Assembly (NCBI GenBank): GCA_019915135.1
Contig: JAHLMK010000007.1
Coordinates: forward strand, 1,364,001-1,428,000
From: Strobilurus pachycystidiatus
Taxonomy: Eukaryota; Basidiomycota; Agaricomycetes; Agaricales; Physalacriaceae
DNA: 64,000 nt
Direction: 5' to 3'
Positions 4,719 to 63,907 of this stretch are shown here, one piece after another. Position numbers and translations under genes: made by a program. Positions within the stretch are counted from its first letter, which is position 1; each line of letters opens with the position of its first letter. Under the pieces are notes generated by a model that made no database searches, was not told where the DNA came from, and saw nothing but the letters and a program-made list of their open reading frames with translations.

Positions 4719-5223
4719 ATGAACGACTTTCTGGACATTGAGCCTATCCGCAGTGAGGCCAAAAGTCAGATAGCCTCATTTGTGGCGCGTCAGCGTACAG
4801 TCGTAGTTCAGACGTTCGCCGAGTGGAAGCCAGGTACTGTTTCATCCTTCCACGTATTTAATGCCACCGATTGATGGGAGTCTAGACGAGGCGACGCGAG
4901 ATGCCGATTGGGAGGATGAGTCTGTGATCCGTCGCATGGAGGTTGGCGAGATGGATGACGAAGTCATGGACTGGCTGGTTGACACAGGCATTGCGCATTT
5001 GCGGAAGGACTTTCTTGACATGGAGCTGGTCAGTATGCTCAACCTTAGACTCTTCGCCGCTGGTGAGTTGTGTTCCTTGTTTTGTATCCGCGGTACTAAA
5101 TCGAGGGTAGCGGTGATCAGTCTTGAGTCGCGTGTTGCCGGGCTCCTCACACTTGCTCTTCCATTGGAGGTCGATTCTCCGGGACTCCAGAACCTTCTGG
5201 ATGCATTCAGGGATCTTGCTTGA
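4719..5223 (+). CDS. Gene B (left copy): conserved hypothetical protein, 134 aa
   Basis: Exons 4719-4833, 4886-5062 and 5111-5223 (115+177+113 nt) join in frame. The protein starts MNDFLDIEPIRSEAKSQI, has an acidic middle part (DEATRDADWEDESVIRR, then EVMDWLVDTGIAHLRKDF) and ends with a hydrophobic helix, SRVAGLLTLALP. A paralogue on the opposite strand at 63388-63907 has the same first two exon lengths, the same intron phases and matching residues throughout (DIEPIRSEAK / DVEPIRTEAK; AGLLTLALP in both). Two diverged copies with identical gene structure argue for a real, selected gene. No known domain, signal peptide or catalytic motif is visible. It is tail-to-tail with gene C and co-oriented with gene A. 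Function unknown. Confidence 0.82.
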
Positions 5224-6173
5224 TACTTGTAAATCGGTTGCCTGTAGCTCAACACGTCGTTGCTTAATTCCTGCGCTGAAATTCAAAGTTCGAGTACACT
5301 AGCATTATACTACAGCCTGAAATCCAGGCCACATCTGTCTTTGCTCGGACAGAAGCAGGCGCTGGATCTACCTGACCTCAACTTGTCGCAACGGACGGCG
5401 CCGTTTGTGGAAGTCGAGGGCGTGACCGAGACCGAACGACGATCGCGCCACTGTGGCGCCATTTAGTTAATCACCGTCATGGGGAGAATAAAGATTTCAC
5501 CGTCAAAGCAGTCACTTGATCAATGGGGAGGCGAATAGCCCATGGGGCAGAAATTGGGAGTGCAAATGTCTTCAGACGAACGGGTATGGCCTTCATTAAT
5601 TTCAGAAGAAACAATTCGAAGGCTTTGCTGCGACTGTCCGACTGTCCTCTGGTCAGGGAGGGAAGCTTGAAGTCTCCAGCGCCTTCTTTGACGGTCGGTT
5701 CCGTCAACGGTCGATGCCGAAAAGTGCTTCGTCGATGCTGAAGCACCAACGGCGTCTCTCAAGAATATTTAGCAAGAGGAAGTGTTCCTTCGCTTCCTCA
5801 TGTAGCATCACTTTGAGAAGGGCGATGGCAGGGAGTTCCTCAAGAACATGAGGCTCGGCGGCCTTGGTACGTGCCGACCCCGATGACCGACCCCGATTCT
5901 AGTGCGCAATTAAACATGTTTTTGTCGTTGCCATGCTGGCGTATGTCAAAGAAATGATCCATACAGTTGACTGCGTCGCAAATTGGTCAAAAAAACACGC
6001 GTTCAATTCTTCAAATCCAGTTACAACAAGATATACAAGCAAGTAAGTATGACCAAAAGTACAAGATATGCAACGAAACAATGAAAGTACAAGATACGAA
6101 ACAAACAGTACTGGCTTGAATGAAAGCGTTCAAAAATCTACGACCTCGGAGCTATATGTACATACAGGTCCAT
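5224..6173. other. Intergenic, no gene supported
   Basis: About 950 bp between the converging 3' ends of B and C. Only short open frames with no family resemblance are seen. The stretch near 5770-5870 has a weak coding look but is broken by stops. Confidence 0.5.
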
Positions 6174-8231
6174 TCACAAGGCCGGGTCCTGGGCTATCGT
6201 CGCGTCAAAACTCCTCTCGAGGATGTCCGTCCTGTCCTGCTCCGACATATTCATTAGAAGATGGAACAAAGCTCTGTCCAAAACATCATCAACGCTGATA
6301 GTGCAAGCAAGATCGCGATAGAACGAGGTGGTGATAACCTTGTCATCTTCAGCCTCGTCCTCCGTACGGGCGCCATCTGTCGCGCCGGTGTCAGACCCTT
6401 CGGCGGCCGGCTTGTTGACGGGGTACCATTCGCTGTCGGGATCCACCTCCATACGAGCAGCTCCAACCAACTCGTCATCCGTATGGGCGCGTTCAGCAGG
6501 CAGATCGTTGATGGGGTACCAGGGGCTACTCAATTCGGGGACGGAATCGTCGTCGGAATCCACTTCCATAGGTGGAGCAGGTCCAACCTTCGAAGGTGGA
6601 GGGCCTCTCGGTGGCTCCGCTTTTGGCACCACAAAGTAGGGACCGCTGGGAATTGGCGCCCGAATGAGAGGAGGTGGCGACTGGGTTTCAGAGCGACGAT
6701 TCAACAAACTGCGAACCTCGCGGCGGTGCGCGCGATCTTCTGCGTCGAGAAGCCTTTGCTCGTCCTCCCAGGCGGTAAGCTGAGCGGAGTCGCAGAGGCG
6801 CTGAAAGTCGCGACGTGCTTGAATCTCCACAGCAAGAGTGTCGCGAAACACGCCGCCAACAAACTCCAGTCGGTTGAGAGCAACAGCTTGCGCAACAAAC
6901 ACGGACGTGACGTTCTCAGCAAGAACCATACATGAAGCAGCCACGTCCGACTCGGGGAATACACGCTTCAAGACAGCGGTAAGAATCTCGAGGTTCAGCA
7001 GCCGGCAGTCAACGATACCGCTGGAGGGAAGAGTCTGGAAAGGAGCAACCGACGTAGGAGCAGGAGCTTCAGTGTGAGGCCCATCATCTGGACGAGTCTT
7101 CGCATAGTACTTCTGACAAACCGCGTCAAGTCGCCTCTTGAGCTCGCCGGGAGACGGTGCAGACGGGATCACTGCGGCCAGGCGACGGCCGTCGCGCGGC
7201 TGAACGGAGACAGGGGTGGTGCAAGGTGGGATATGCGGCTGGGGAACTGGGGCCGCAAGTTTAGCCAGAGGCGGAGCAGAGAGACCGGAAGGAGGTGGGA
7301 TATGCGGCTTGGAAACTGGGGCCGCAGCTCTGACTCGAGGTACAGCAGAAGGACGAGCGAGAGGCTGGGGGAAACCAGAGAAACCGGAAGTACGAACAAG
7401 AGGCCGACGCTGGGGCTCTGATGCCACAGCTGCAGCTTTTACGACAGCTGCAGCTTTGAGAGCGTCCGCAACAGTAAGACCCAAAGCGGGAGTCTTGACA
7501 CCAACAGGTAAACGAGGGAAAACGAACTTGGAACTCTGTGGGCGCGTGGAGGAACCAGAAGGACAAACTCGCCGAGGAGGACCATCAAACAAGCGGGGAA
7601 TGACAAGAGTGGTAGGAGGCAACGGGCCGGGGGGCGGTAGGCCCCATCGCTCGCGACGACACGAATGAAAATAGTGCATCACTTCGAGAATGACCTAGAT
7701 AAGAGATCGCGTCATGTTAGCAACGACAAAGACACAGGAAATGAGAAACTCACGCGCTCTCGAACAATATACAGCTCAGTAGCGTTAGGTTCGTCGATCG
7801 GGAAGCATTGCTTGAAGTTGTAGACGAACAACTGGAATTCGTGGTCGGCGTAGTCAAAGTTTTGAGCCGCGTGTCCTTCGTCAAATTTGTCGCCCCAGTA
7901 TCCCGAAAAGTTGCAGATGGCTTGGGACTGTTTGCGAGTAAACCGCTGGAGGGACGGCATCAGTGAAGGTGAACGAAAGACTAGGGAAGTATTATACATT
8001 ATGACGGAGTTCTTTCTGTTGAGATGGCTGGCATGACGGTCAGTAATAGGTCATCTTCAAGTTGTGGAGGACACTTACGACGGGTACAAGAGGGAGATCG
8101 TGCACGGCGTTGAAAGGGTGATACCGTTCACAGATTTCGATGTAAGTGCGCCACTCAAGCTTGCGGTCGGCAATGATGGCGGCGACTACCGCAGGGTCGT
8201 CGACGTTCTTGACGGTAAGGGAGTAAAACAT
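6174..8231 (-). CDS. Gene C (left copy): conserved hypothetical protein, 627 aa
   Basis: Exons (minus strand) 8231-8079, 8015-7998 (an 18-nt micro-exon), 7945-7754 and 7694-6174 join in frame. Start ATG 8231 aligns with ATG 60004 of the right copy (MFYSLTV / MIYSLVV). A conserved N-terminal block (FSGYWGD.....GHAA, then a Tyr/Phe-rich helix ending RERV) is followed by MHYFHSCRRERWGLPPPGP. After that comes a long Pro/Ala-rich tail with internal duplications (PHIPP repeated), an acidic part, and a conserved C-terminal helix pair around VITTSFYRDLACTISVDDVL. Exon 1 (153 nt) and exon 3 (192 nt) have exactly the lengths of the right copy; the low-complexity last exon is 300 nt longer. No catalytic motif, signal peptide or membrane segment. 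I do not recognise the family. Confidence 0.82.
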
Positions 8232-8547
8232 TGGGAAATGGGATGCGGGGCAAGGCGAGGCAAGAGCGGGGAGGGAAATTTTGGGAAGCTGCGGATTAAT
8301 AAAGGCAATACGGACTTTTCCTGGCAGCTCTAAGACGCAGCCGACTACCCTTCCAAGACGCCGTCCGGCTTCGTTACAATTCCATCCCAACCAAACTTGG
8401 GGCGGGGATCTGCCGAAAGAAGCAAAGCACATATGTAAGGAAATAACATATGTGGGTACGCGCAAGGGAGTCGTCTCCGCCAACAAAGGAAGAATAACGG
8501 TTGGCGGGAAGTCCAAGGATGGATTCTCACTCGGACTCGACCCCCGG

Positions 8548-8813
8548 TCCGCCGATCGCGTGGTCACCCGTTCGATCCATGATCATGACTGTCAGTGTAT
8601 ACCACACATCTTTCGAGGGAGTGTGTTGTAAGTGACTTGAACCCGGAATGAAGGCATATGTTGGATATAAAGTCAGAGTGTCATAAAATACAAGATACAT
8701 ATATATACTTCATTCCGGGTTCAAGTCACTTACAACACACTCCCTCGAAAGATGTGTGGTATACACTGACGGTCATGATCATGGATCGAACGGGTGACCA
8801 CACGATCGGCGGA
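8548..8813. repeat. Foldback: near-perfect inverted repeat, 105-bp arms
   Basis: Arms 8548-8652 and 8709-8813 are reverse complements at 103 of 105 positions (mismatches near 8558 and 8592) around a 56-bp AT-rich loop. The structure lies about 320 bp upstream of gene C. No clear target duplication is seen at its edges. It could be a foldback/MITE-like element or a source of double-stranded RNA. Confidence 0.9.
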
Positions 8814-9162
8814 CGCTCCGGCGATCAAAACTCATGATGTTACCGAATTTTGTCTCTTCACCACGGCATAATGACCAAATGACCGAATGACCGAATAACC
8901 TCAGACCTAGGGACTGTCGCGGCGGGCCCGCCTCTTGTCTCTACAATGACGCCTTTCTTGCGGGCCGAGGGCTCTGATGTATCTGGAAGGCCGGTTTCTC
9001 CCATACATATACATAACCTTACCGACAGCTTCGACTATAACTATACTGGGCGCCAGCGACTTTCTCTCTAGTGCGGTGTTGAATTACATGCCTTTAGCAA
9101 CAAACAAGACGAGGTATGTAAGACATCGTTGGAGAGTACCTACTTGAATTGAACAAGAGAAT
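8814..9162. other. Non-coding gap
   Basis: No gene, promoter or repeat structure recognised in this stretch between the foldback and the tandem array. Confidence 0.4.
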
Positions 9163-10030
9163 TTATCATACCAGGCACTGACTTATGATAGCTTCCCAAA
9201 CACAAACCGACCCCTACTTCCTCTCTCTCCTCAACGGATCGTCCTGCGCGTGTGACTGTGAATGGTTCAGACCCTATACGACGTATGTACGCGTCGCTCA
9301 GGCTGTAGATTTGGAATAACTAACAGTGTTTCCTTTTTGCAGATCGGGCATCACTAAAGACGATCGACTGACTCTGCCCGAACACAATCGACCACCACTC
9401 ACTCACTCCTTCAGGGATCGTCCTGCGCGCGTGAACTTGAATGCGTTAGACCCTATACGACCCATGTACGCTGTCACTCGGGCAGTAAATTTGCGAGACC
9501 AGACGACAACTCTTGTTCCAGATTGGGCATCACTTCCGGGCACACTCCAAGACGATCGACTAACTCTGCCCAAACACAAATCAACCACCATTTCCTCTCT
9601 ACTCCACAGATTATCCTGCGCATGTGAACTTGAATGGCTTAGACCCTTTACGATGTATGTACGCCATCGCTTGGGTCCTATCTTCAATAAGACTGACTTT
9701 GTCTGCATTTTCCAGATCGGACATCACTAGGACACGATCGACCCGATCTACCCGAAACCAAACCAGCCACCACTCCCTCTCTCCTCGATGGATCGTTCTG
9801 TGCGTGTGAACTTGAATGGTTCAGACCCCATACAACGTAGGTGAGCCGTCATTTGGGCTGTAGATTTAGATTAACTAACGACTTTTCCTTTTTCCAGACC
9901 GGGCATCACCCCCACACCACGATTGACCCGATCTACCCGAAACCAAACCAGCCACCACTCCCTCTCTCCTCGATGGATCGTTCTGTGCATGTGAACTTGA
10001 CTGGCTCAGACCCCCATACAACGTATGTAT
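9163..10030. repeat. Five degenerate tandem repeats, period about 180-193 bp
   Basis: Recurring landmarks (gatcgggcatcac, cgatcgacc.., cctctctcctc..gatcgt, gtgaacttgaatgg, gaccc.atacgacgtatgta) begin near 9163, 9343, 9522, 9715 and 9898. Most units carry a polypyrimidine-AG tract followed by a GTATGTA-like donor, so each unit resembles an exon with splice sites, but no single frame stays open across all copies. Located between C and E, as is the array at 58230-59150. Confidence 0.8.
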
Positions 10031-10650
10031 CTTGTCAATCGGGTAGAAGCCAATCAAGCATATCGTTAACAGCTTGGGCATTCGGCATTCGGACATCCCT
10101 CGGTCAAGGCAAAACGGACTAGCTCGAGGTTGAAGAATTGTCTCTGTAACAGGTCTATGCCCAAAAAGCATCAAGTCCACCGCGGCCCATTAGTGGACTG
10201 GCACCAGTGTCTGTAACTGGTTCTGGAGCCAGTCCACAATGTGCTGCAATGCGGCGCGTACCCCGATTCAGGATCTTTTTTGTACTTTTAACACAAATAA
10301 ATTGTTTTTTTATTCACACAATCAAACACCATACCACTTTTGCTCGCATTTTGTCTTTTTCGTAAGTTGAACAACGCAACATCGGCATTTATGATTGGCC
10401 CCGCTTCGATGCGTAAATTTTGTTTTGGTACAGACCACAATCTTGCTAGTTCCTGACTGGATTTGTCAACGCCGTTCTAGGGATACGTGCACCGTTTTGT
10501 TGTGGACCAAAACAAGTCACTATATTCTTGGGGTAACGACAGTGTTGAACTTTACAGATATAATGTATGCTACTACGTTTGCAGGGATTTTATACTACAC
10601 AGAATCGGACGAATACACAGAGAGATGTTGATGCACGCCGCGCGGCCCCT
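10031..10650. other. AT-rich 3' flank of gene E, no gene seen
   Basis: About 620 bp with poly-T/A runs near 10270-10310. No supported gene. Confidence 0.4.
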
Positions 10651-13600
10651 CTAGGGAAGAAGCATGCACGTACCGGCCTCTAAGGCGCTGGCGAGGACTT
10701 GACGCCCCGCCTCGAGGGACGGAACAGAGCGGAACGCGGCGGTACCCACACCGATGACTTGGGGAGACGCGCGGTCCCTGGAGAGAGTATCAGTTGGGGA
10801 CGTCCGTGGAGTAACAAGGAAGAAGTCAACTTACCAACCAGCAACGACGCCCACGACGCGTCCCCTTGTGATGGCGTAGAATGGACCAAGACTTCCGCGC
10901 CTCGGCATGACGAATGGGAAGTCCGCTGGGAGGACCTCGTTCAAGGGGTAACCTGGCAATATAGTCCGTCAGAGTCGAAGAGGGAAGTGATTGGGAACGT
11001 AACGTACCACTCTCGTGGAAGGCAACTGGCGCTGGCGCTTGTAAGACAACTGGCGCTGGCGCTGGGAAGACGTGGTAAGTGAAATGAACAATTCCATGAA
11101 AAAAGATGTCTCACGGTTGTTTCCCCCCATGGAGGGTCCAGCAGCTGGCCCCCAGACGCCGAAGACGCTACCTTGAGGAGCCGCAGGAGCGGCAGGAGCG
11201 GCAGCAGCAGGGGCGGCAGCAGCAGCAGCAGCAGCAGGGGCGGCAGCAGCAGCCGTACCAGGCGCCTGAGCGGCTGCTTGGACGGGAGCGGCAACGGCTG
11301 GCGTGACCACAGGGGGTGCCGGCTGAGCGGCGTGGCCCTGCGTGGCGTAAGGCGGCGGGACATTAGCAGCTGGAGAAGAGAAGTTAGTCATGACTGGCAA
11401 AGACCGAGGAGAAATCTTACAGGTGGCGGCTGCGGGAGTCACAGGAGGCGCGGCAACTGCTGTAGCGGTGACGACGTCTGGAATTAGAAGTGGGGAATTA
11501 GGCGGACGCATTCAACTCAAGTAACCGGGTGGACGTTGATACGCAGGGTACTATTCCAGTACTAGAAACGGGGAATTTTGCGATTCCTGAACAGCCCAAA
11601 GACCTTAGGAACCTCCAGTCAAGTACTTAGGATAGAGCACGCAGGAGTTACTGCCTTGACGCGGGCAAGCCTCCAGGACAAGGTCCAGGCGCCTTAACAA
11701 GTCCTTTAGGACAGGCGCGATCGAAACCTTCGATCACCTTCATCCGAATATCCTTATCCGCGCGTTGGATCCCTTTCAAGATCCCGTACCTTTGCGTGTA
11801 CCTTGTACTACAGACGATGTGCTATAACCATTCGCACCCAAGGAGGGTCCAAGGTCTCCAGGCGGTTCAGTTCGAGCGACCCAAGACCTGCGCACCTCAA
11901 CCCAAAGACCTGGAAGGTCCCGAAATAGTTCAAGGACGTCACAACCCTTTTGGGGAAACAATCTTCGGAGCTGTCAAGGACTCCGAACCGACGCCTTCCG
12001 CTATGCCGATCGATCATGATCCACGATCAAGGACCACCCCGAAAGCAGGGTGTATTACCACTTTAAGAAAGCACTCCCCTGTAGTGTCTGCGCTCGAAAG
12101 GACGTTCTTAACGATCTCCATCCAACCTATCCACAAGAAAGCAGGTGTCCGTAGGACCTTGCAACATAAAGATACCTAAGGATCGAAGTCCTTATCGGAC
12201 CTTGATCTCCTGGGCACAAGGATTGTACCATACCGCCAAGGTGGCGTATATGGCTAAAGGACCAAGCGGCCTGTCCGCAGTTGTTTCGACCAGGGATAGC
12301 CAATAAGAATCCAGCACTTGTATGACTCAAAAGTCCGATGTATCCGATCCTAGAATAGATGCTTACTCAGTAGGAACCCACCAGTAGTATAAAAGGGCCC
12401 AAAGGACCCATATTTCGGTAGCTTAGATCCCCCCCAGTAGCCGCTAGTCAGACGCAGCCATTGTAGTGAATCTATCTCGAGTTTCGACTCATTTCTGCAA
12501 AGAACCCAAAGACCCCAAAGACCCCAAAGACCTTTCCAAGATTTAAAGACATCAGGTGTTGCCAAGCTCCTTGAAAGACTCAAAAGAACCTTATTCCGAC
12601 GTACCAAGTCAAGTACCAACGAATCTACTTGGTGTTAGAACCTTGTATTCGCAAGAAGGCCGGTTTGCAAGTGGTTCTGCCCTGCATTCACGCTATTTCG
12701 TGAAGTACTTTCCTTTGAGGAATAAGTTGAGTTTGAACGAGTGTTGTCAACGTCTGAGACACCTTTCGGAACCTTTGGTCCCGGTGCAAGACACTAGAAG
12801 TTTGGTTTAAGTGCAAGAAGGAGTCCTTATCGTTAGCAGTCCAGTGGCGTAAAACCTGCGGTAGCGGCCTGACGATTCCAAGACAAAATCCTTGTACACC
12901 AGAGCACTTGATAGGTAGAAGCTACATTGCCTCGCGCTGTTTAAGGTCTTCATACGTCAAGAGGTTCGGCCTACGACTTCAAGGTTTTCTTGTGTCATTT
13001 CGATCAGAATCCCTACACCCCCAAAAACAACTCGTAGTTTAACTACAGCGATTCGGAATACATCTCTATTTCTCCATTACCCAAAAGCACCTTGTTCTCT
13101 CGAACCTTTGTGCACCCCAGCTCCCTTACAAGGAGTGTTAGTTGTGATAAGGATTGATAGTGTGGTTAGACGATAGCTTCTTTTTCAGAGGTCTATTCCG
13201 AACTTGCACATCATATTTTGGAGCCCACCGCGAGGGGGTGTAAATTTTGATTTCGAAAGAGACTTCCAAGTCGACCTTGAGATCGGAATCTCCATAAACA
13301 AAAGACACTGGCTGCAAAGAACTCTGGTCGTTACACCAACAGCCAGAACCGCGCAAATCCACAACCACCAAAAGGAGACCCAGTTATTGCCGGATCTTCA
13401 AATCTAGCAACCTCTGGTATCACTAGTCGCCTAAGAAGCAATCGCCCAATCGCCGGCTCACTTTACAACGGTTTACCTAGTGAAGTAGCTCAAGCACAGC
13501 GACGCTTTGCAGACCCGACTACTCCCAAGAACCAAAAGAAGAAACGTACGCAAGTACCACCTTCAACACCTACTGCCTCTAGGATCAGATCTTCTTCAGA

Positions 13601-16600
13601 TCCTGAATCACCTTCGAGAACTCCAACCAGTACCCGAAGACATTCGGACTCTAGAACTTCGCCTAGTCCCGCATTTGTGACACCTTTCGGAAGTCCTTTG
13701 ACTGACCTTGAAGACCCCGAAAGTCCAGAACCTATTACCCCCTTCATTGACTTTAACACGTCTACCCAAAACACGATACCAGTTCCAGTAATGGCAGTAC
13801 GAGCAATTGTACCTTCCGAGGAACTTAGTGCTGAAGCTAAGAAAGAGATCCAAGGCAAGAAGATTCCGATACCATTCTCAAGGGATGCTCCCAAATTCAA
13901 GGGACACTCCGGCGATGATGTGAGGGAGTTCTTCACGATGTGCAACTGGATCTTTGACCAGACAGGAATCGCCGAACAAGGTACTAAGTTGGAAGTAGCC
14001 GCGCTATACGCCGGCCACGAACAACGCCTAAGGTGGCACAAAAACCCAGACTACTTGAAAGGTGTCTGGGCGGACTTCCAAGAATCAGTTCTCTCCTCAT
14101 ACTCAAAGGGAAAGAACGATCCTACGTACGTCCCGGCCGACCTAAAGGATGCCTTGGACCCGTACCTGGCTAGGCCCATAGCCAACAAGCAAAAGTGGGA
14201 AAGCTTTCAGCGCGAAGTGCTCCATATCATGGGACATCTTATCACGTCGGGAGAACTTACCAATAAGGGTGCTATAGAAGATATCAAGTCCTCTATCACA
14301 GAGGGAGTTTGGCATAATGTCCTTGGGGACCTCAGGCGCGATGCGAAAGCTAATGCAACAGCCGGGACAACCCCCACCTATGACTTCACGTTGTCAGAGG
14401 TCGAGGCAGCAATCTCCAACTACTTCTTGACCGATAAATGGATGAGCAAGAGTGCGAAGGATAGTCCTTATAACAGAGAACTTATTCCCGCCTCTACCAC
14501 CCGAATCAAGACAGAGGAGTTGGATGAATACCTGAATAGGGTAGCTAGCCTTCAGGATATTATCCAGAAAGGAGAAAAGGAACGCGAAGAGGCTCGCAAG
14601 GCTGATCAGAAGATGATGGCAGAACTTCTCCATACCTTACAGCGTGGAGGTCCGCAAGGACTCCGCACACAAGGTTTTGTACAAGAAGCCTCGCCGGTTT
14701 ATCTACAAACACCTGCTCAAGGTGTCTCAGTCCCGACCAACTTACCGAACGGACTCTACAAAGCTCCTCCGGGCGCGTTCCCAGGAAACAAGTTCGTAGT
14801 TAACGATGGAAGGTGCTACTTCTGTCGCGAGCTAGGACACATTGTAGCAAATTGTCCGACAAAGGAAATGTGCGAAAGCAATGGTCATATCTACAAGCCT
14901 GGCGGTACCAACATATATCATGTAACGAATGGAACTACTAGTCAACCTATTCAAAGGGTTAGTCCCAAGCAGCCTCTCAGCCCTTGGGAACAAGTTCAGA
15001 AGTTTCAACAAGAAAATGCACCTAAGGTATCGGCGTTCCAATCTCAAGAAGATGAGTTCGCACCTGAGGTCGCGATGTATGTTCAAACCCCAACCCAAGA
15101 AGAAGAGTTTGCCCCCGACGCCTATCAGGGTTTCGGCAGGGCTCGATGAAGGAAGGAGTGCAGTTAGCACATACTCCTCCGGAGAGCCAGTTCACTGTAG
15201 AAACTCGTCAAACTCGTCAGAGTACAAAAGCACCTAGTGCACCTTTGGATTCAACTCCACAAAAGAAGGTAACCTCATGGCCTAAGGACCGGGTGTCCGT
15301 GGTCATTCCAAAAGCAGCACCGCCTAAGGTATCATTCTCCAAGCCGGAAGTCACTCAAGAAGTAGAACCTGTTGACCAGGAACTTCTTGACGAAGTCCTG
15401 GCGATGGAAGAACCAGACCCGGTGCCGCAACCAAAAGCAGATTCAACTCTGCCAGAAAAGAACCAACCAAAGGTTCAACCTAAGGAACCTAAGGTCAAGA
15501 GTTTCCAACGTCGTAGCCTGGCAGAAGAACTCTTGCACAAGAATCCCAGTTGGCGTGAAGCCTGGAAATTCTTGTTACCCGAAGCCCTACTAGCTACCAA
15601 CCCCCCTTGGCAGCAGAGCATTTCGGACTTCATCAGGAAACGCAACACGCCGGTGGCTGTATTCAAAACGGAAGTAGTGGCCGAAACGGTCCAGGATCAC
15701 TTCCAACCCGAGCTATATTCAGTCAACTTTCATGAACAAGGTGATTTACCTATTGGTGGGATTGTAGTCCACGATGCGGTAGAACAGTTTGTAAACCTTT
15801 CCGGAGGTCACTATACTGGTCCCTTTCAAATGATAAGTGGCAATATGGCGCCGGAAAATGCAGATCTACGAACCTTTTGGCCCTTGATCAACAAGAATGG
15901 CAAAAAGGAGAGTTTAGTGGATGGTGGATCGCAGATCGCCTCCATTTCGCTCAAGGCAGCTTTGGAATTAGGAATAGCCTACGATCCCACTTTCACCATT
16001 ACGATGGAAAGTGCGGACAAGGGACGAACCAGTACCTTGGGATTGGCTCGTAACATACCTTTTGACTTTGAAGGTATTGTCTATTACCTTCAGCTGCATG
16101 TGTTGCAGGATCCCGCCTATGAGGTCCTACTGGGACGACCTTTCGAGATCGTTTCAAACCTGGTCATCACCAACCTTCCCAACGGGAACGCAATCGGAAC
16201 CCTTACGGATAACACCAATGGGAAGAAGTTATCGCTACCTTCTTACCGTCGAGGACAGATCCCAAGACATATGATTCCAGGGGGACAGACGGGTTTTCAC
16301 GGGAACCTAAGGACGTAGGAAATTCCTATGAAGAAGCCGTGTTGATCCTTGAAAGGTCACCAGAAGGAAACATCGAAGTAAAGCAAAGTTGGATACCTGG
16401 TGATAACAGGGAGACCTTCGGGGAAGGGGACTTAACGTCCTTATACATGAAGAAGTCACCCAATAGGGTTCATCAGGCAGCCAAAAGGCTAAGGAAGCAA
16501 CACGCCTTCATGCATGCATCGATGCACCAAGCATCGACACATATGACAGTCCCAGAACATATGGTGACACCTACGGGACTATTAAAGGTCCCAACCAAGA

Positions 16601-44379: not shown

Positions 44380-44384
44380 AGTTG
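44380..44384. repeat. Target-site duplication AGTTG, right
   Basis: Matches 39866-39870. Confidence 0.88.
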
Positions 44385-52035: not shown

Positions 52036-52038
52036 TAA

Positions 52039-52790: not shown

Positions 52791-52963
52791 CTGACAGGAC
52801 TAGACCAAACACATCTGACTTACACATTGTTTATATTTATACCCCAAACGTACATACAAGCAGCTGTACAAGAGAGCTAAAGTACCGCAATCACCACAAG
52901 CACAAGACACAAGACACAAGAAAGGATCTGCCAAAGTACAGTACAAAAAAGTCCGTCCGAAAC

Positions 52964-55900
52964 TTACGCTACAACCCTCAAGAGCTCTTCCAAGACATAC
53001 GACACATCCTCGATAGCCACCGCCCACTCCTCCGCCAGACCCGCCGGAGCACTCTTGCCAATCAGGGTGTGGTGTCTTCCCCACCAGCAGAGACACGCCA
53101 CGATCGATGCCATCCCGTTACGCCCATGTGCATCCTGCAGAATACCCCACGAGCGACCGTTGGCTGCTACACGGTATTCCTCCGTCAAAGGCCCATCTAC
53201 CATCGCCACTCCTCGCCAGTCTGGCTGGAGCCTCTTCCACCAGCTCCAGAATGATCCACTGAATCCTCGCAGTTCTGCTCTAGTGATTGGCGGGTATGAT
53301 TTGCGAGCGTACTTCATCCAGACTTGGACCTGCGGCGGACGATCTCTCACAGGCAGGGCAACTTTTCCTACGGCAAAGCGGGTGCGTCCCTCCACGCGTA
53401 ACCACAGATTGACCATGTTTTGAAACTCGGGAGCACTGATACACTTGAAATGCGTGTAGCAGGTTTGAACCCAGTCCGGCCAGCTCTTCTCGTCCAGGGG
53501 ATTGAAGGGAGGCAAATCTGCGGGAGGAATCGAGGCTCGCACCGCTGCGACACGGGCGCGCGTTGATGGCGGCTTCACAGGAAGTGATCGCGTGGGGCGA
53601 GGTTTTCTCCCATCGTTATTCGGGGGAACCCGAAGGGCGCGCTGTGACCGTGTAGTAGGAGGAAGAGGCGGTGATGCAGCAGGAGGAGAAGACCCCACTG
53701 TGCGACGAGGCGACGGAGAACGAGCAGCGCCGCGGGTCGGTAGAACCGCTCGAGTATGAGGTTGCGCCGCCGCCTCCGTCGAAGGTCCTGCCTGTTGAGT
53801 CACGTCGTCGTCGTCGTCGTCGTCGTCGACAGACCCGAGGTCCCAGTTCACATACGAGACGTCGTCGACGTTCCAGCTCTGATACGCGTACGCGTACGCC
53901 TTGTTGTACGCCTTGTTCTCCGCCTCGTTCTCCGCCTCGTTGTCGACGTTCTCGTGAGAGAATCCTGGAATCGAATCCTCTGTGATGGAATCAAGATACG
54001 GAAGAGTCGTCGCACTCCTGTCGGGATCGGCATCGTCGTCAACTCGTCGTCTCTTCTCTGCTCGGCGACCGACGACCTCTTGTTCATCACCCGCGTTGAT
54101 CTCTTGGTCTGCGTCTGACCGGCCCTCTAACTCCTTCGCACCTCGCTGGACATAGGCAGGCTTTGGGCGGGGCCTGGGCTTGGTGGATGCCGAAGGTGGG
54201 GATAGGCGGGGCAGAATGGGCGATGGTTCACGTTGGAGTGGGAGCGATGGCGCACGCGGAGGAAGTGAAGGAGAACGGCTCCGACTGCGCAGAGGGGAGC
54301 CGACTGGGGACGGCTGACACCCTACCACCGCGCTAGCCAGAGCGCGAACTTTCCTGCGGTTCGCCGTAAACCTGTCGTCGACATGTTTCCGAGAGCGGCT
54401 CAAGGAGACGTCGCCGATGGACATGTCGCCAGCGGCGGTCTCTGCCGCCGCTTTTTTCGTCCGCTGTCGTTTCGGCTTGGGGGCGGGCATATCCTTCTTT
54501 TTCCGCTTCCTTCTCGTCTGTCCCGTGCCGTCATCGTCCTCCTCCGCATCGGAATGGACGACCTTCTCCTTGCGCGGACGCCCGCGAGGTCGCTTAGCAG
54601 GAGGACCTTCTTCGGCGAGACGGCGTTGCTTCCCGTCTCTCGCGAGGCGCCGCTGGCGTTTGGACTCCAACTCGTCATCAGGTTCTTCATCTCCCTCGAG
54701 GTCGAGACCGTTGCGAGAGGACCATGACATGCCCGCCGGGACCTCCATAGACTGTACCACAATGTGTATCTTCTCGGCATCGCTCGGTTGCGTATTAGGT
54801 TTTCTGGGTGCTTTCCAACCGGGAAGTGCGCTTTTGGCGAGCTCGCGGGGAGCTAAAGCCGTTGTAAGCCGGGATAATTTTTGCAGTGGCGTTAAGTTAC
54901 TTACTATATGCGTCGGCTAAAAACTGCTTGAACGTATTCACATGGAGCGCGTATGCAGGTGTATGTGAGAACGCGACTGGGATAGGCTGCTGATTGAGTC
55001 CTTTTGTCAATCTGCGCGTCAAGTTAGGGAAGATGTATGACCACGAGTAGTGATATACGTACGCCTTCACAGTTACTTCGCCACCCAGCGCCGGCTCGGG
55101 TATGCCCATCAAAACGGATATCTTGGCGTTGAGCATCGTGGACAGGGATGTGAGAAGTGGGTCCAATAGGAAGGGAATGTCGGTGAGCAACCTGGAAAGA
55201 AACAAAGGTAAGTTGGAGAAATTTCACGCTGGTAGAACACATACCGTTGTGCATCTTCAGGACTCAACGGTGTGTTGACTTGTCCTGTCAAGGCTTCGCG
55301 GCGAACGATCGCGGCTTCCTTCGCGTCGTAGACCTGTGTGTGATACTTCTCCTGAGTCTTGGCATCCGCGGAGTGAAATTTCCTGGCGTTCCAGGCCGCT
55401 TCCGCCCCCGCTCTAAATTTGGCCGGCTTGCCCGACTCTTTGAAGGATTTGAGGAATTTCTTGCGAAATTTGTCGGGCTGATCCTTGGCGAAGAGTTGAT
55501 ACGCGTGTGGTACGCGAACGGCGGCGTGGCCGATGCCAAGGAGCTCATGGACGATCATGGTCGCTAATCGTCCCGGCTGGGAGGGGTCGGCGGAAGGTTG
55601 GGAAGGGTTGGAAAGATGAGTCGCTTTGGCAGTTTGAGCCGCACGCCCACGACGAGTATTTCCGCGGTTCTGCTTGTATTGCAGACAAAGCCACCGGTTT
55701 AAGCTCTACAAAATTATCAGACATATCTGCTGCGCAGAAAATGACGGTAACTCACGGATCGAAAGCGTTTTGTCGTGGCTGTCTTCAAGAGTCGGGCGTC
55801 CCTGGCCTGCACACTCTCCTTGACGTCGCTTGCTTTGACTGGTACGGCGGTCTTCTTGCCAGTCATGCGCCGCCTGGTGCGTCCCTTCGGCAGAGGCTAC

Positions 55901-56384
55901 GGCCTAGGTCAGCACCCACATCTTTGTCGAGACCATCGAATTTCACTCACCCTGTCGTCTTCGTCGCCGTCGCCGTCATCCTGCTTTCGTGCCTTCAAAT
56001 CGTCTTGCTCGTCGTCCTCGTCAGCGCTGGGGTGATAGTCGCTTAATTCCTCGAGGGGTTTCGAGTCGGCGCCCCATGGTCCCCACATCCCAAAGACCCT
56101 CAGCATGTCGTTCGCCGCCACCAAGGCATATGCCGTTCCCTCCTTCGGATCGGCGGAATTCCGGGCGAAGAAAGTGTCGTAGTGCTCGTCAATGGCGAAC
56201 TGAAGGGCGGCGCCTTTGAGCCAACCCTTCTTGAACGGTGGCAACTTCGGCAGTTCGTCGTCGCTTTCGGCATCTGACTCAGTATCGGTGCCTGAACTAT
56301 GTCGGGAATCGTCCATCAGGCATCAATGATTGGACGAATTGGGAAGACATACTCTTGATCGTCTTTCTTTGGTTTCTTTGGCAT
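52964..56384 (-). CDS. Gene D' (right copy): HMG-box-like and AT-hook protein, 1034 aa
   Basis: Exons on the minus strand 56384-56353, 56296-55951, 55896-55756, 55705-55245, 55191-55063, 55011-54905 and 54852-52964 sum to 3105 nt in frame. Exons 5 and 6 (129 and 107 nt) and the combined length of exons 1+2 (378 nt) equal those of D. Conserved features are LQFAIDEHYDTFFARN, the HMG-like segment PHAYQLFAKDQPDKFRKKF..AWNARKF, the AT-hook KRPRGRPRK, and the C-terminal block RVEGRTRFAVGK to AHGRNGMASIVACLCWWG. The low-complexity centre differs completely (Asp run and NKAYAYAY repeats instead of Gly/Leu/Asp repeats). It is intact, so both copies could be functional. DNA binding is inferred. Confidence 0.82.
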
Positions 56385-56661
56385 CGTGTTACGCGACGTT
56401 CGAGACAGTGAAAATAATGCCAGAGACTTGACAGTGAATCTTCTTTTTGCGGCGGTCGATGACACAGCGGCCTCTTCGAATCCTGATTTCCCCACGCTCT
56501 GGCATTACCCGCGACCGCTGGCTGAACTCAAGCTGCCACAACTATATAGTCAGTCACACGGCGCCAGTACATAAAGCTTTCCTTCATTTCCCACAATCGT
56601 TTCATACTCTCTCTCAACTTCCATCATCGCCAATAGCCCTCCGCCACAAGTCCTTCCCAAC
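56385..56661. promoter_or_regulatory. Shared D'/E' divergent promoter (right)
   Basis: 277 bp. ACTATATAGT near 56540 is a palindromic TATA element, and the CCCCACGCTCTGGCAT stretch near 56490 is the counterpart of the left-hand GCCCGAGCGAGG element. Spacing to D' is about 110 bp, versus about 100 bp on the left. Confidence 0.55.
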
Positions 56662-57944
56662 ATGGTCCAGAAACCCAACAACAACAACAACAACGTCTCA
56701 AAAGACTCTAAGTCGGTGTCAGCCGTCGAGCTCTTGCGTGAGTGCTTGGTCGTTGTCATCTTGGTGGTCAGTCTGACGAGTATCTCTGCCAGAACTGGCG
56801 CAGGGCCTTCTCGACATCAACCTCAACGGCAGCCAGGCCGAGTTCCTCAACGCCCTCATCGGAGCGGCTACGCGTGCCAGTACGTGTCGTTTCACCCTCT
56901 GACCCTAAGTGTTGACTCATTTCCTCCCCACCTAGACGACGGGGACTCAGCGCCCCCCGTCTCTTCGTCCGTCGCCGCCTCGGCATCTGCCGGTACGTGT
57001 TCTTCTTGCATCTGTGGATCCACGATCACTCAATCAAGTCCCGTTTAGGTGGCTCGCCCAGTGAGCCGAACTGCCTGCGCTATCTTCCGGTGTCTTACCT
57101 CTTCTTCTAGATGTTGGGACTGCGGCAGGCTCCGGCCGTACTGGTAAGGGTTTGATAAATCCATGCGTCTATGAACTGACACATTTTCTTCTAGTGAACA
57201 CTGTCCCGCCGCCGTGCGCTAGACAGTCGCACGTTGGACCGCCCGCCGCGCCCGTCGTCACGGCGGCTAATGCTACGCCTGTCGTCGCTACCGCCGCCGC
57301 TGCGCCCGTTCAGCCCACCCCCGCCGCAGCCCAAGTTCCTGCTGCTGCGCCCGTCCAACCTGCTCCGGTCGTTCAGGCCGCGTCCGCGCCTGCTCCCGCG
57401 TCCGCGCCTGCTCCCGCGCCCGCGCCTGCTCCCGCGCCCGCGCCTGCGCCTGCTCCCGCTCCCGCGCCCGCCAACCGTGAGTGATGAATAATAATGTTCC
57501 TCCGTCTCTCATTGACTTGTCCCCGGCAGCTAACTTGGCTGGCTGGACTTACCCGGCCAACTGGGCTGCGCCCGTCCTGCATAGCAACGGTAAGCTTGTA
57601 TATGATTTCTGGATCCAAATTTGTGCCTGATCAATCCCGATGTAGGCTTTGCATACAACGAAGTCCTTCCGCAGGATTTCCCCTTCGTTGTCCCAAGGAG
57701 GGGAACTCCCGGGCCGTTCTATGCCATCACGCGTGGCCGAAATGTCGGGGTTGTCGCTGGCTGGTACGTTGTTCATGTCTTGACGTTGCGAAGCCGCCAC
57801 CTTATTCTTCTTTCCAGGGACATTGCCTCGCCCGAGGTCATTGGGGTTAGCGGCGCGGTCTTCCGCTCCGTCACGACTCTTGAGGCGGGTGTTAGCGTCA
57901 TACAAGCTGCTCTCTTGGCGGGTGCGTGCATGCTCCTACAGTGA
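56662..57944 (+). CDS. Gene E' (right copy): Ala/Pro-rich protein with RNase H1 N-terminal-like domain, 283 aa
   Basis: Nine exons: 56662-56737, 56793-56879, 56936-56992, 57049-57060 (12-nt micro-exon), 57111-57143, 57195-57476, 57530-57589, 57646-57763, 57818-57944; 852 nt in frame. Exons 2, 8 and 9 (87, 118, 127 nt) equal those of E. The N-terminus has an Asn run and LLQLAQGLLDINLNGSQAEF. The centre is (PAPA)n, encoded by a GC-rich tandem at 57385-57470. The C-terminus, EVLPQDFPFVVPRRG, FYAITRGRNVGVVAGW, VIGVSGAVFRSVTTLEAG, fits the RNase H1 N-terminal/Cauli_VI fold. No RNase H catalytic domain follows, so it is a stand-alone binder by prediction. Head-to-head with D'. Confidence 0.8.
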
Positions 57945-58229
57945 GGTGTCTCGGTGTCTCGGTCTGGCGTCTCCGTGTCCATTTATTTATTTAATCCAAA
58001 AAACATGTATCTTGCCCCGAGTCTGTACCTGTACTTATCACAGCACTGTCCTTACATGTAGTAGTCAATTTGTGTTTGAAAGATGTGTTTGAAAAAGAAT
58101 CAATTTTACCATGCATTGTGAAGATATAACCACGAAAAGTACATGATAAAATCAACGTGACGAGCGCCTGAGTCGAACTTGTGCGGCGAACAAATTCTCG
58201 GCTCAAGACCGAGCGAACGAAACATGTGG
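57945..58229. other. 3' flank of E'
   Basis: 285 bp, AT-rich; nothing recognised. Confidence 0.4.
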
Positions 58230-59150
58230 AATGATAGTAGAGATGAGAGAGACTCACAAGAGGACAGAGAGGTACCGTGTTTAGACGACGAAGTACCTGG
58301 ATGTTTCGATGTACAAAGGGATTAATGTCCTGTCAATGAGGTCAGGCATAGCGATGCAGCAGTGGGACGGACAATATGGGAACGAGTTGAGTCCGTGAAG
58401 GCGGGCTCGATCACTTGGTCCTACCAAATCTTGTCACCCTCGATGGCTCTCGGAAGGTCGGATACGAGTGACAACGTACTCGAGTCCTTTGGGATCCGAA
58501 GCACTTGAATCTCTCGTCGAGAAAGTAAGAGAAAGCAGAGCGACGGCTCGGTGGACAATATGAGATCGAGTGTGTTGGGATGAGGCGGGCTCGTTGTCTA
58601 TTGTACTCGATCGTATTAGTGTCGGCCGCTCTCGCAACATTGGACAAAAATTACAACGTACTGCAGTCCTTCAGAGTCCAAAGGACTCAACCCCCCGGCG
58701 AGGAAGAGACGGATGGCCTAGCAATGGCCAAACAAACACTATGAGATCGGAGGTGTTGGCGTAGGAGGTTTCGATCACCAAGTTGGATGGACCCCGAAGT
58801 CCTTCCCAACCTGGTTGGTGTGAGCTCGCAAGGTCAAATAAGAATGGCTTGACAGCATACCTTAGTAGTTTGGGGTATGAAGCACGCAACGCCACCGGCG
58901 GAGAAGGGAGAAATGACATAGCGACGACGCGCCGAAGAATATGGGATCGAGTGTCAGGGCGGGCTCAATTCCCTTATCCTACCCCAACTTAATTGGGGTC
59001 GACGGCTCTCACAGCGTTAGATGATATTGACAACTTACTTGTGTTCCTTGGAGTCTGAAGCAATCATGTAATCGCCCAGGAAGGGACAGATATCATAGGG
59101 ACGGGGTGGGGAACAAGCGGGCTCGTTCGATTACAGACCTACTCAAGTGC
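58230..59150. repeat. Degenerate tandem repeats, period about 160-195 bp
   Basis: Landmarks (gacaacgtact..agtcctt..gatccgaagc, ggacaatatgagatcgagtgt, gcgggctcg) recur at about 58401, 58584, 58764, 58959 and 59117, with a weaker unit before them. Located between E' and C', the mirrored position of the array at 9163-10030. Confidence 0.7.
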
Positions 59151-60003
59151 TATGAATGCGGAATTAGGGGTGTCAGTCTTGCCATTCTTCATTGGAAGAT
59201 CACCTCATCTACCATTTATCTTGCCGGTCTGTTCAACACTCAGACGTGCACCCAACCAAATGATTGTAATGGTTCACAGTAACGTTCGCCAGTTTAGATA
59301 GCCCACTAGAGTCGTCCGTGGTAGGAAGCCATAGGAGTCAGCCGTTCGAGGAATCTTGCTTGTTGGGTCGACTGAACCAGCGAAGAACTCCCCTTGGGAC
59401 GAATGCAAAAGGTTACAGTCCCTTTCGGAAGTATAATGAGAGATATTTTTGATCGCCGGGAGATTGGTCATGTTATTGATCGCGGCTATGATGTTTTCCC
59501 GTTTCCGACTTTCTGCTTTCCACTACGACACGTTACACGTTTCACTGCTCCAGGCGTTTTGTGGTTTCGTGGGAGGCTTGAGGCTTCGTCCAGTGTGCAA
59601 AACACGGCTGACATATACAAAGGTATGCAAAATATTCATATTCATCTCCTCCGCTAGTGGTCAATGGTTGTTCCCGACATAACTGCCATAACTGCGCCTC
59701 GCCAAGGTGCAAGGTCGCCACAAGCTCTATGTCCGCACGCACGTAGACACGAGTCGCCTGATTCTTTTGCGTCTGACGTCGGTCTTCTAACAGGTTTGCG
59801 GCCGGCGATTTGACTGTGACCCGCTTCGTTGGATTGGTACCCCCGCGCCACATTGCTCCTCGGCAGCCCAGTCGCGATGACCTTAGTGGTCGGAGATCTC
59901 CTTCGGCATCATGAGGCAACTCCCGTTCTTCTTAAGGTGGCAGCCCGAGGAATGGCTGGTATCTTTATTCCCATCTCCAAACGACCCCACGCCTTCTCCC
60001 AAT
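59151..60003. other. 5' flank of C', no gene supported
   Basis: The last 60 bp (ATCTTTATTCCC...) resemble the 5' flank of gene C (CCTTTATTAAT...). No coding region recognised. Confidence 0.45.
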
Positions 60004-62242
60004 ATGATTTACTCGCTGGTCGTCGCCGACACGCCTGATCCCGCCATCGCCGCTGCGATTCTCGCTGATAGGAGGCGCGAGTGGCGCATCTATGTCGACT
60101 TGAACGACAGCCTACACCCGTTTGATGCTCGCCACGACCTTCCGATTGAACCAATGGTGAGAATAATTGACTTGGCGTGCAGCGCTTTTTGCTAGACATG
60201 ACCACGAATAAGGAGTAAAGGAGAATATTCATGAATATATTCCTAATCTTATTCATGAATATGAATATGATGAATATATTATATTCGTGAATAAGAATAA
60301 GTTGACGAATATAGAATATGAACCTTCAAGTTCACATAATCCTCAACTCATTCATGAGTGTCTGACAATACTGAATTCTCAGTACTGAAAACAAGTTTAT
60401 GATAAATTTAGATGCTGTTTGAATGATTTATAGTTCATTCAATAACTTTAACTGTGATTTTGAGTGACATTGAGATGATTATACTTGTATATTCGTGAAT
60501 ATTCATGAATAAAAGCGAAATATTCGCAGTGAAGATTAAGTTGACAAATAAGATTAAGAGTATATTCATGAATAACAATTATGACCCTTGGAGGGGGGAT
60601 TATTCGTGTGCATGAATAAGAATATACTCGAATATATATTCGTGGACATCTCTACTTTTTGCTGATACCCTTCATAGCCTGCCCAGCAATACGAGATTGG
60701 CTACAACGTATGTTCTCCCCCCTCCGCTTCCCACCCTCACCACTAACCGACGCCTTCAACATCAGCGCCTGTCGCGTGCCCAAGCGCAAGCGGTGTCTAA
60801 CTTCTCTGGGTATTGGGGCGATCTTCATGACCAGGGTCACGCTGCGGGCAATCCTACCTTTGCCGACTACGAGCTGAACAATTTCCTTTTCGAGTTCAAG
60901 CGATTCTACCCTATTACTGAGCGCCACGCAGCGGAGTTGTACGCTAATCGCGAAAGAGTCGGTCTTTTCGTCTCTTGAGTATCACTGGGGGAAACTGACA
61001 GCGACTTCGCCGCACACACAGGTTATTCTGGAGGTATTGCATTACTTCCACGCTAGTCGCCGTGCTCGTTGGGGTCTTCCCCCGCCGGGCCCTCTCGCGC
61101 CAACTTCTTTGGTCATACCTCGCCTTCCGGGCGCCCCTACCGCTCACGTCGCGTCCGATCCTATTGCTCCGGATCGGCCTGCCCCCGCGTTCGTGATTCC
61201 TCGGTTGGGACCGGGCCAACCTTCCAATGGGCGCACCACCCCGTCTCTATCGCGCCCCCGTACTGCAGCGTCCAGGCCTGCGTCCTCCAATCCCACTTCT
61301 CCTACCTTCACCCGGGGCAACCCCAAGCTTCCTATCATCATGCAGGGGATCCGTAGCCTTTCTACTGAGGAACTCAACAAGTGCATGCGCGAAATGCGCG
61401 AGAAATACGCCAAGAAGTCCACGGCCTCCTCTCATTCTGCGGCCCCGGCTCCCACTCCCACCGACAACCATCTGCCCACTTCTGGCCTGATCGATGGCAG
61501 GCAATTGCATGTGGACGTGCTCGCTGCCTGCTTGAAGCGCATATTTCCTGAGTCGGAGCTCGCAGCTTCCTGCCTTGTCTTGGCCGAGAACATCTCGCCT
61601 TGCTGGGTCGCACCAGGTCAGGCGTTGGACCGCTTGGAGTCAGTCAGCGCTCTCTTCCGCGACACTTTGGCGCGAGAGCTTCAAATTCGGCGCGACCAGC
61701 TCCGTCGCGACGATTCCCCTCAAGTCACAGCCTGGGAGGATGAGCGGACCCGGATGGATGCCGAAGATCGTCAGAACCGGCGCGAGGCGCGCGAGCTCAT
61801 GCATCGCCGTTCCGAATCACCTCCCAGCCAACCGCCTCGCAACCTTCCGACGGGCGCGTACTTTGTCGCACCCAGGCGTGCTCCTCCCGCCGCCCCTCCG
61901 CCTTCTAAGGTCGGGCGTCAGAGGAGGCTCCCAGCGGCCGATTCGGAAGAAGAGACCACCGACACAATCATGGGAGATCACAGCACGCCATATGTCATCA
62001 ACTCACGGATGGAGATTAGCGTCGTGGACTCCTCCACAGAGGGTGACCGGTCTCCCTCGCCTGACGATACCGACAAGGTCATTACCACTTCCTTTTATCG
62101 CGATTTGGCCCTTTCCGTCAGTGTTGATGAAACTATGGACAGGGCAATGATACATTTGCTCACGACCATGTCCAAGAGTGACCGGGTCGACATAATCGAG
62201 AGGAGTATTGACATATCTTTCGCACACGACTCAAATTTCTGA
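60004..62242 (+). CDS. Gene C' (right copy): conserved hypothetical protein, 528 aa
   Basis: Exons 60004-60156, 60674-60694 (a 21-nt micro-exon; boundaries plus or minus a few bases), 60766-60957 and 61022-62242 join in frame. It matches gene C with exons 1 and 3 of identical length and the blocks FSGYWGD, NRERV, HYFHASRRARWGLPPPGP, LNKCMREMREKY, LAACLKRIFPESELAASCLV and VITTSFYRDLALSVSVDETM. The last exon is shorter than in C because the Pro-rich part lacks internal duplications. The first intron contains a 462-bp hAT-like MITE. Likely polyadenylation signal AATAAA near 62363. No catalytic motif; function unknown. Tail-to-tail with B'. Confidence 0.82.
60185..60192. repeat. hAT MITE target-site duplication (left)
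   Basis: CTTTTTGC, repeated exactly at 60655-60662. Confidence 0.9.
60193..60654. mobile_element. hAT-like MITE, 462 bp, in intron 1 of C'
   Basis: Terminal inverted repeats TAGACATGACCACGAATA and (from the other end) TAGAGATGTCCACGAATA match at 16 of 18 positions and fit the TAGRGATG-type ends of hAT elements. An 8-bp target duplication, CTTTTTGC, lies at 60185-60192 and 60655-60662. The interior is AT-rich with many ATTCATGAATA/ATTCGTGAATA palindromes and no coding capacity. The host intron keeps its splice sites. Confidence 0.92.
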
Positions 62243-62880
62243 TTGTATTCTTGTCCCCGGCTGTACTTTTTGTTGCTTTTGTGCTCTGTGTTCGTATCTG
62301 TTTGTATTCTCGCATAGTCATCATTGTACCTTCCGCGTAGTTGCAGTCCTCAATTTTGAAAAAATAAAACCAATTTCCGTATGCTGCATGTGTTACATTC
62401 TGGGTGATTGCCTAACTCGGGGTCTCCGCGTGCGACATGCAACATGCAACCGACAAACCTGATCTGAACGCCTTCGGCCGTGTCCAGATTTTCTACTGAC
62501 CTTTCTGCGATGGACGCACACCACTGTTTCCAGTCTGTTTCCCTTCCTTTCCTTCTGCGAGGGATCCACATCACTGTGTCCCTTCCTAACGACCAAGCCC
62601 GCTGTTCTGCAAACCCACGGAGCTGGTTTGTATGCCTTCGCCTCCGTGTCGAGCAGATCTTCTGGCCTTCTGCATTGAAACATCTTCACAGTGTCGCTTC
62701 CACCCATGCCCGCGGTATAGCGAACCAACGGAGCTGGTATGAATGCCTTCGCTTCCGTGTGGAGCAGTGCTTCCAACCTTGAGGCGATGAAATAAAGCCG
62801 TCTATTCGTATCGACTCTTATAATCTCTGCCCATGCAAACTCCTCACGTCCTGGCTATGAACAACTCAATTGACAAGTAA
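62243..62880. repeat. 3' flank of C' with a two-copy imperfect direct repeat
   Basis: CGGAGCTGGTTTGTATGCCT (about 62619) and CGGAGCTGGTATGAATGCCT (about 62731) begin two units of about 112 bp; a weaker third unit lies near 62510. The minus-strand translation shows LLHTEAKAFIPAP / LLDTEAKAYKPAP, but no complete gene is supported. Confidence 0.55.
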
Positions 62881-62895
62881 ATTCTTCTCTGCCTG

Positions 62896-63120
62896 TTGTA
62901 TGAACAGGCTGAACTCAGGGATTACAGACTCGTCTCCCTTGCCCTTGCCGCTGGGGCCATGAGCGTCGATTACGAAGTCGTCTGTCAAAAGCCATGTCAA
63001 TGCGTCTGCCACCATCAACCCTGCATGACTATTCAGACGGGTTTAGGGCGCGCCGACGGGGAAGGGATCGAGCGGACATGGCCCGAGCTCAGTCGTACAG
63101 CCGTGGCCAAGGAGAAGCTC
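62896..63120 (+). pseudogene. KDZ transposase fragment (KDZ4)
   Basis: A short frame containing TGLGRADGEGIERTWPELSR and KEKLPG, the catalytic block of KDZ transposases with its Asp retained, followed by a GTACG donor. The upstream 40 residues match poorly and no other transposase segment is present. It intervenes between C' and B'. Confidence 0.7.
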
Positions 63121-63387
63121 CCTGGTACGTTTTGCTTCATTAGTCTTATCTTGTCGTTGACTGTTACCTTATCAATTCAACAGCGGCCCTTCCTTGACAA
63201 GTCAAGTGAATTCACGAGCGACGGGCCTCGTAACACTGGCAAACGCCGTGCGCCGCCACTCATTTACAAGGGTCATCTATGTCTACGGCCCTCGTCGCTT
63301 GGGCTCATCTTAAATAAGTACACGCAAGCAATTGAGACCACAAAAAGTGAATGCTACAACAGATGGAAACCTTAGTCTACCGTTCCA

Positions 63388-63907
63388 TTACAACCGTTCC
63401 ATCACACGCTTCAGGGAGTCAAGGAAGTCGTGGAATGCCGAGGAATTCGATTCAAAGGGTAGCGCCAGAGTAAGGAGGCCGGCCATTCGCGATTCATGGC
63501 TCATGACCGCTGCGAATCCATAAGCATTCTTCGGCATTTGCCATTCGAAGAGCAGACTCACTGGAAGCGAATAATTGAAGGGACAACATATCGACCAGAC
63601 CCATCTCAACAAAGTCCATTCGGAGGTGCTCGACGCCAACCTCAATAAGCCAGTCGTCAAGTTCCTCGTCCACCTCCCCAGGATCCCTACGGCGGATGAT
63701 GGAAAACTCTTCCCAGTCCTGTTCACGAGTCGCCTCATCTAGACAACACGATAATCAGGGGTCGTCATGTCAATTTATGATTGATAGCGTACCTGGTTTC
63801 CAATGTTGGAATGTAGACACAATGATGCGACGCTGACGAGCGACGTTCAAAGCAATTTCCTTCTTTGCCTCTGTACGGATGGGCTCGACATCAAGGTAAA
63901 TGTTCAT
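63388..63907 (-). CDS. Gene B' (right copy): conserved hypothetical protein, 137 aa
   Basis: Exons on the minus strand 63907-63793, 63738-63562 and 63509-63388 (115+177+122 nt) join in frame; intron positions and phases equal those of B. The protein starts MNIYLDVEPIRTEAKKEIA, has DEATREQDWEEFSIIRRR, EELDDWLIEVGVEHLRMDF, and ends MAGLLTLALP..LKRVMERL. ATG 63907 corresponds to ATG 4719. A TTATATG element near 63957 could be its TATA box. Tail-to-tail with C'. Function unknown; the conserved exon structure in two diverged copies supports a real gene. Confidence 0.82.

Follow-up and report, generated by a model that had tools for sequence, protein, structure and literature searches.

Mirrored gene sets in Strobilurus pachycystidiatus very probably represent two insertions of a giant Kyakuja-like KDZ transposon family

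Results

Four mirrored gene pairs at the locus

The DNA analysed was a 64,000-nucleotide stretch from the basidiomycete Strobilurus pachycystidiatus (assembly GCA_019915135.1; genome 51.8 Mb), covering positions 1364001–1428000 of contig JAHLMK010000007.1 (here C7) in forward coordinates. This whole stretch is called the window, and positions without a contig name refer to it. It contains KDZ transposase genes and two sets of four genes; B, C, E and D form the left set, and B', C', E' and D' the right set. The window was compared with itself in six frames, which gave four inverted pairs: B at 4716–5211 (+) and 63409–63910 (−), with 54–63% amino-acid identity; C at 6186–8273 (−) and 59968–62230 (+), with 44–55%; E, in a main block at 10657–10953 (−) and 57645–57938 (+) with 57–80% and in a 5' exon at 28146–28238 (−) and 56792–56884 (+) with 61%; and D at 28725–32292 (+) and 52979–56310 (−), with 38–76% across blocks. 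The lowest E-value among these pairs was 1e-82, which excludes chance resemblance. DNA identity between the left and right units is about 67%, counted over the aligning stretches only.

These four pairs bear out the reversed order and orientation, B-C-E-D / D'-E'-C'-B', reported in a preliminary description of the sequence, and its measurements were reproduced as well. The inner edges of the units, at 32301 and 52964, are 20.7 kb apart (about 20 kb had been given), and the head-to-head E and D genes are separated, start to start, by 269 bp on the left (E start 28365, D start 28635) and by 277 bp on the right (starts read at 330280 and 330558 of a near-identical copy on C9).

Each unit is a KDZ element with its own ends

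The right unit is a single block on the minus strand at 52029–69224, of which 52029–64000 lies in the window. End to end it matches C9:318170–334913, with 99.94% identity over 8,570 bp and 99.73% over 8,183 bp; the identity stops abruptly on both sides, and a separate 7-bp direct repeat flanks each copy. By alignment to the ends of the right element, those of the left element (plus strand) were placed at −526 (C7:1363474, 527 bases to the left of the window) and 33266. The right-hand terminal inverted repeat lies at 33178–33266 (+) and one copy of the target site duplication, GGCGGTG, at 33267–33273 (+). A third, diverged element was found at C4:2960829–2977524. All four elements with ends read (left, right, C9 and C4) have CA..TG ends, and each is flanked by a different 7-bp target duplication: GGCGGTG (left), AGGTACG (right, on the element's strand), CAGCGCT (C9) and GTAATAT (C4). 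All four also carry imperfect terminal inverted repeats, alignable over about 65–100 bp, that score 71, 71, 101 and 109 against shuffle maxima of 29–34. With nested insertions subtracted, the elements are 16.7–17.4 kb long, the left one being about 17.4 kb without its long terminal repeat (LTR) retrotransposon.

In each of the four, the ends enclose a KDZ gene together with B, C, E and D. The layout is KDZ transposase (−), B (+), C (−), E (−), D (+) between the inverted repeats. On the left, the transposase gene (1–3556, −, extending outside the window; about 12 exons modelled, with profile matches to PF18758 and CxC2 PF18803) is followed by genes placed by homology: B (4179–5223, +, first exons uncertain), C (6174–8344, −, start uncertain), the 3' part of E (10651–11391, −, with a profile match to the RNase H1 N-terminal domain), the 5' exon region of E on the far side of a retrotransposon (28146–28365, −, a homology block with a placed start) and D (28635–32301, +). 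On the right, also by homology, are D' (52964–56384, −, start taken from the C9 position), E' (56662–57944, +, encoding a poly-Pro/Ala stretch and an RNase H1 N-terminal domain matched by profile), C' (59911–62242, +) and B' (63388–64000, −, 5' exons to 64816 outside the window). The transposase gene of this element, at 65085–68886, lies beyond the window end. A four-gene module with a KDZ gene flanking it had been proposed; the four genes stand, but the KDZ gene is not outside the module, being the fifth gene of the unit on both sides.

An inverted (palindromic) segmental duplication of a host four-gene cluster, with subsequent divergence, would produce the exact mirror in gene order and orientation seen within the window, and the preliminary description did speak of a mirror-image duplication. 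However, the two units have separate ends and differ in their target duplications, and the right unit resembles the C9 copy far more than it does the left unit. The flanks are also unlike: the left element sits in what we take to be a fatty-acid-synthase-like (FAS2) fragment, while the right element is surrounded by another KDZ gene. A duplication event is contradicted by the separate target duplications and is extremely improbable on the evidence as a whole. Instead, the mirrored genes very probably belong to a single giant KDZ DNA transposon family, Kyakuja-like by its ends and target duplication, of which two diverged copies inserted separately. Since two diverged members inserted in opposite orientation, no duplication is needed; the mirror arrangement is accidental, two family members having landed oppositely in one transposon-rich island.

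The right element interrupts the transposase gene of another KDZ element, identified by KDZ matches at 50022–52028 (−), whose reading frames resume at 69225. A D-like gene lies beyond the right element, at window position 76264. The family has moved recently, because the C9 copy is 99.7–99.9% identical to the right element.

The five-gene set recurs across the genome

Sets of KDZ, B, C, E and D in one order and relative orientation were found at six places: C7 left (with E split), C7 right, C9, C4 and two on C3. Ends were read for all but the two on C3. Partial or rearranged sets occur on C1, at C7:1312588, and on C26, C28 and C2; C3 and C28 also hold some isolated B or C matches. A second inverted arrangement was seen at C28:58691–142082, reading E(−) D(+) C(+) B(−) and then C(−) D(−) E(+). 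Its halves score equally for E and for D and unequally for C, and it may consist of rearranged elements or be an assembly feature.

Linkage to KDZ genes was then measured genome-wide. All lists used were lower bounds and contain copies of common descent. The KDZ list comprised 119 positions among the matches listed, excluding any match confined to the N-terminal half of the profile. A listed KDZ match lay within 30 kb of D in 83 of 91 listed places, of B in 14 of 17 (from 32 matches), of C in 10 of 14 (from 39 matches) and of E in 22 of 32 (14 from 22 matches, 18 from a second search). The corresponding figures for controls were 38/150 for a Ty3-type retrotransposon domain (best 150 of 271 candidates scored) and 587/5000 for random points. 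E and D stood head to head in 23 of the 26 pairs within 12 kb; copies of common descent are among these pairs, which do not count as independent observations.

It could be argued that B, C, E and D form an element or host cluster of their own that merely lies near KDZ genes in transposon islands. KDZ genes are abundant, with at least 174 matches in the genome (best 150 of 249 candidates scored), which makes proximity alone weak evidence, and some places with B, C, E or D have no listed KDZ gene within 30 kb. Against this, KDZ and the other four genes all lie between the ends of every element whose ends were read, order and orientation are fixed in six places, and the retrotransposon control is far less KDZ-linked. 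We consider such an independent cluster very improbable. The earlier suggestion that the four genes are a co-inherited module carried by a large KDZ DNA element was upheld by the ends and 7-bp duplications enclosing all five genes. Its prediction of co-occurrence near KDZ genes agrees, within this genome, with the six ordered sets and with linkage above the controls; here the genes are not scattered and independent, as the set recurs in order.

Divergence points the same way. Among three elements compared, left and right were the closest pair in all five genes (KDZ 72, B 61, C 51, E 68 and D 57% identity; other pairs KDZ 57–59, B 43–50, C 34–37, E 49 and D 45%), which agrees with one shared history of the gene set. 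Synonymous change exceeded amino-acid change in conserved stretches. The pN/pS comparison used only columns in stretches of at least 40% identity, which biases pN downwards and makes it a qualitative guide only. With synonymous sites saturated but only limited amino-acid change in the conserved stretches, the reading frames of the element have probably been kept by selection.

Proteins encoded by the elements

The spliced right/C9 transposase matched the KDZ domain PF18758 at 174 bits (cut-off 26.6) and CxC2 PF18803 at 127 bits. The left KDZ gene matched PF18758 at 102.8 bits within one exon.

E matched PF01693, the RNase H1 N-terminal domain, at 31.8, 28.0 and 24.6 bits in three elements (cut-off 21), which confirms the nucleic-acid-binding-type domain noted earlier, and it aligned with the yeast RNase HI domain 1qhk (E 7.5e-4). 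In the C-terminal part of E, the part scanned, no catalytic RNase H domain was matched.

D carries an HMG-like segment, the motif KRPRGRPRK, which we take to be AT-hook-like, and a conserved W-rich helical C-terminal domain. The HMG-like assignment had been made from the sequence and may well hold: the best matches of the helical segment of a D homologue were HMG boxes, with modest scores. The model of the D homologue P0001 (Hymenopellis; mean predicted local distance difference test score, pLDDT, 42) was confident throughout only at residues ~229–308, and a plain Foldseek search with it gave nothing at E <1. The C-terminal domain of D was modelled as all helical (mean pLDDT 60), with no useful structural match.

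Relatives were sought in 5.8 billion proteins, though others may have been missed through splice errors or the word-based filter. Five were found for D, all from Hymenopellis radicata (best 7996 candidates scored). None was found at E 1e-3 for B among the scored candidates, nor for C among the 7990 scored that shared most words. B had no match in NCBIfam.

TET/JBP genes and their relation to the elements

No PF12851 match and no TET-like match at E 1e-3 was found in the left, right/C9 or C4 elements, a search that very distant types could escape. TET/JBP as the identity of B, C, D or E was rejected, there being no Pfam or blast support. Elsewhere in the genome, 19 of 77 TET-like places had a listed KDZ gene within 5 kb and 26 of 77 had one within 15 kb; in a narrower set of 13 Pfam matches, 1/13 was within 30 kb of KDZ. 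Relatives of gene C adjoin a TET-like gene at two places. At C26:272382–275717 a TET/JBP-like dioxygenase gene (PF12851 at 24.2 bits, below the cut-off of 34.9) lies directly beside a C relative, and the same neighbours occur at C2:1411219–1416728.

Nested and neighbouring insertions

A 16.4-kb Ty3-type LTR retrotransposon at 11537–27946 (+) splits left gene E. It has 1677-bp LTRs that are 99.9% identical, TG..CA ends and a flanking 4-bp repeat. It must be recent, and it is later than the left element. On the same side, a hairpin with 107-bp arms (98%) lies immediately 5' of gene C at 8547–8814, and five tandem copies at 179–193 bp spacing occupy 9192–10046, between C and E.

The first intron of C' holds a 461-bp insert, near 60193–60655, that is absent from the C9 copy and has a 94% copy about 15 kb before the window. 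It is probably a small non-autonomous DNA transposon; a solo LTR was considered, but the 9-bp duplication and short inverted ends fit the former better.

Between the two KDZ elements, a further KDZ transposase relative at 36281–39289 has a TAG codon within its KDZ match, perhaps reflecting an intron or decay. A 4.5-kb unit between 884-bp direct repeats (99.8%) at 39871–44380 is possibly a short LTR-type element; its second copy, 98.9% identical, has the opposite orientation and extends from about 5.4 kb to about 0.9 kb ahead of the window start. An inverted repeat pair of 1.1 kb at 34119–35245 and 48402–49535 is 98.7% identical, its members 13 kb apart.

Discussion

The elements described here are of a known kind with an unusual passenger set. 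In the part of the Kyakuja account available, Kyakuja elements have 7-bp duplications and CA..TG ends, compared with 8 bp for Zisupton and a Dileera family, and are said, for two Laccaria families, to be without terminal inverted repeats (PMC12730594). Kyakuja-1_LB and -2_LB resemble the present elements in their KDZ transposase, 7-bp duplications, CA..TG ends and extra genes, as far as that account covers them (PMC12730594). The extra genes there are TET/JBP, whereas here B, C, E and D are carried and no TET/JBP was found; and the inverted repeats absent there are present here in imperfect form, with scores of 71–109 against a shuffle maximum of 34. Because of these repeats we call the elements Kyakuja-like and do not file them as members, the assignment being set by ends and target duplication.

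Large KDZ transposons with inverted repeats are also found in Cryptococcus, where KDZ1, KDZ2 and KDZ3 are active (PMC12810828). According to the sections of that report available, they are 9–11 kb long, with duplications of 8 bp (KDZ1) or 4–8 bp (KDZ2 and KDZ3), in contrast to the 16.7–17.4 kb and 7 bp seen here; they have CxC1 where the present elements have CxC2, and those sections describe no comparable passenger set. In Pleurotus, the helpo1.3 insert with capD, capE (PF01693) and capF has been described as helitron-captured genes (PMC4289320). In the portion of that paper available, the PF01693 gene stands beside a putative RNase H-fold transposase gene, inside inverted repeats, in a 10.7-kb extra stretch. 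By analogy this insert may be a related, inserted KDZ-type element.

In the literature covered on KDZ with HMG, RNase H1 N-terminal or viroplasmin, to which the full text of Iyer et al. 2014 did not belong, we noticed no account that places E, B or C in a KDZ element, so the novelty of the cargo is not established. Iyer et al. 2014 reportedly connected KDZ both with TET/JBP and with a divergent HMG protein; E (RNase H1 N-terminal), B and C are not known to figure there. D is probably of the same kind as that HMG protein.

A working scheme for the family would be as follows. The KDZ protein would carry out cut-and-paste excision and insertion of the element. HMG proteins assist other DNA transposases, and D, with its HMG-like segment and AT-hook-like motif, could bind and bend the DNA of the element or its chromatin, so that the transposition complex is built or silenced copies are opened. 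E would be a nucleic-acid binder, perhaps of RNA–DNA hybrids, acting through its RNase H1-type domain, and B and C would be accessory proteins. We give roughly even chances to D and E being transposition cofactors.

A more tentative alternative, to which we give somewhat lower odds, is that D and E are anti-silencing factors that handle chromatin or RNA–DNA hybrids, in the role proposed for TET/JBP in other KDZ elements. TET/JBP passengers have been argued to counter methylation silencing, in the part of that account available (PMC12730594, Kojima 2025). TET-like genes do lie close to KDZ genes elsewhere in the genome, with none found in these elements, and the two C relatives that adjoin a TET-like gene look as though TET were an optional slot. 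However, 12 of the 77 TET-like places also have D within 15 kb, so D is no mere stand-in for TET. A broader proposal, which we think unlikely, is that these elements represent a sublineage of KDZ equipped with five proteins for mobility; the divergent E/D pair would handle element chromatin or RNA–DNA hybrids in transposition or escape from silencing, and a TET-type dioxygenase would be optional beside C in related elements.

With its defined ends, target duplications and conserved five-gene content, the family offers a concrete system for testing accessory proteins in transposition or silencing escape, and its accessory set includes an RNase H1-type nucleic-acid-binding protein. It also supplies a context for database proteins labelled hypothetical, for example the Hymenopellis relatives of D.

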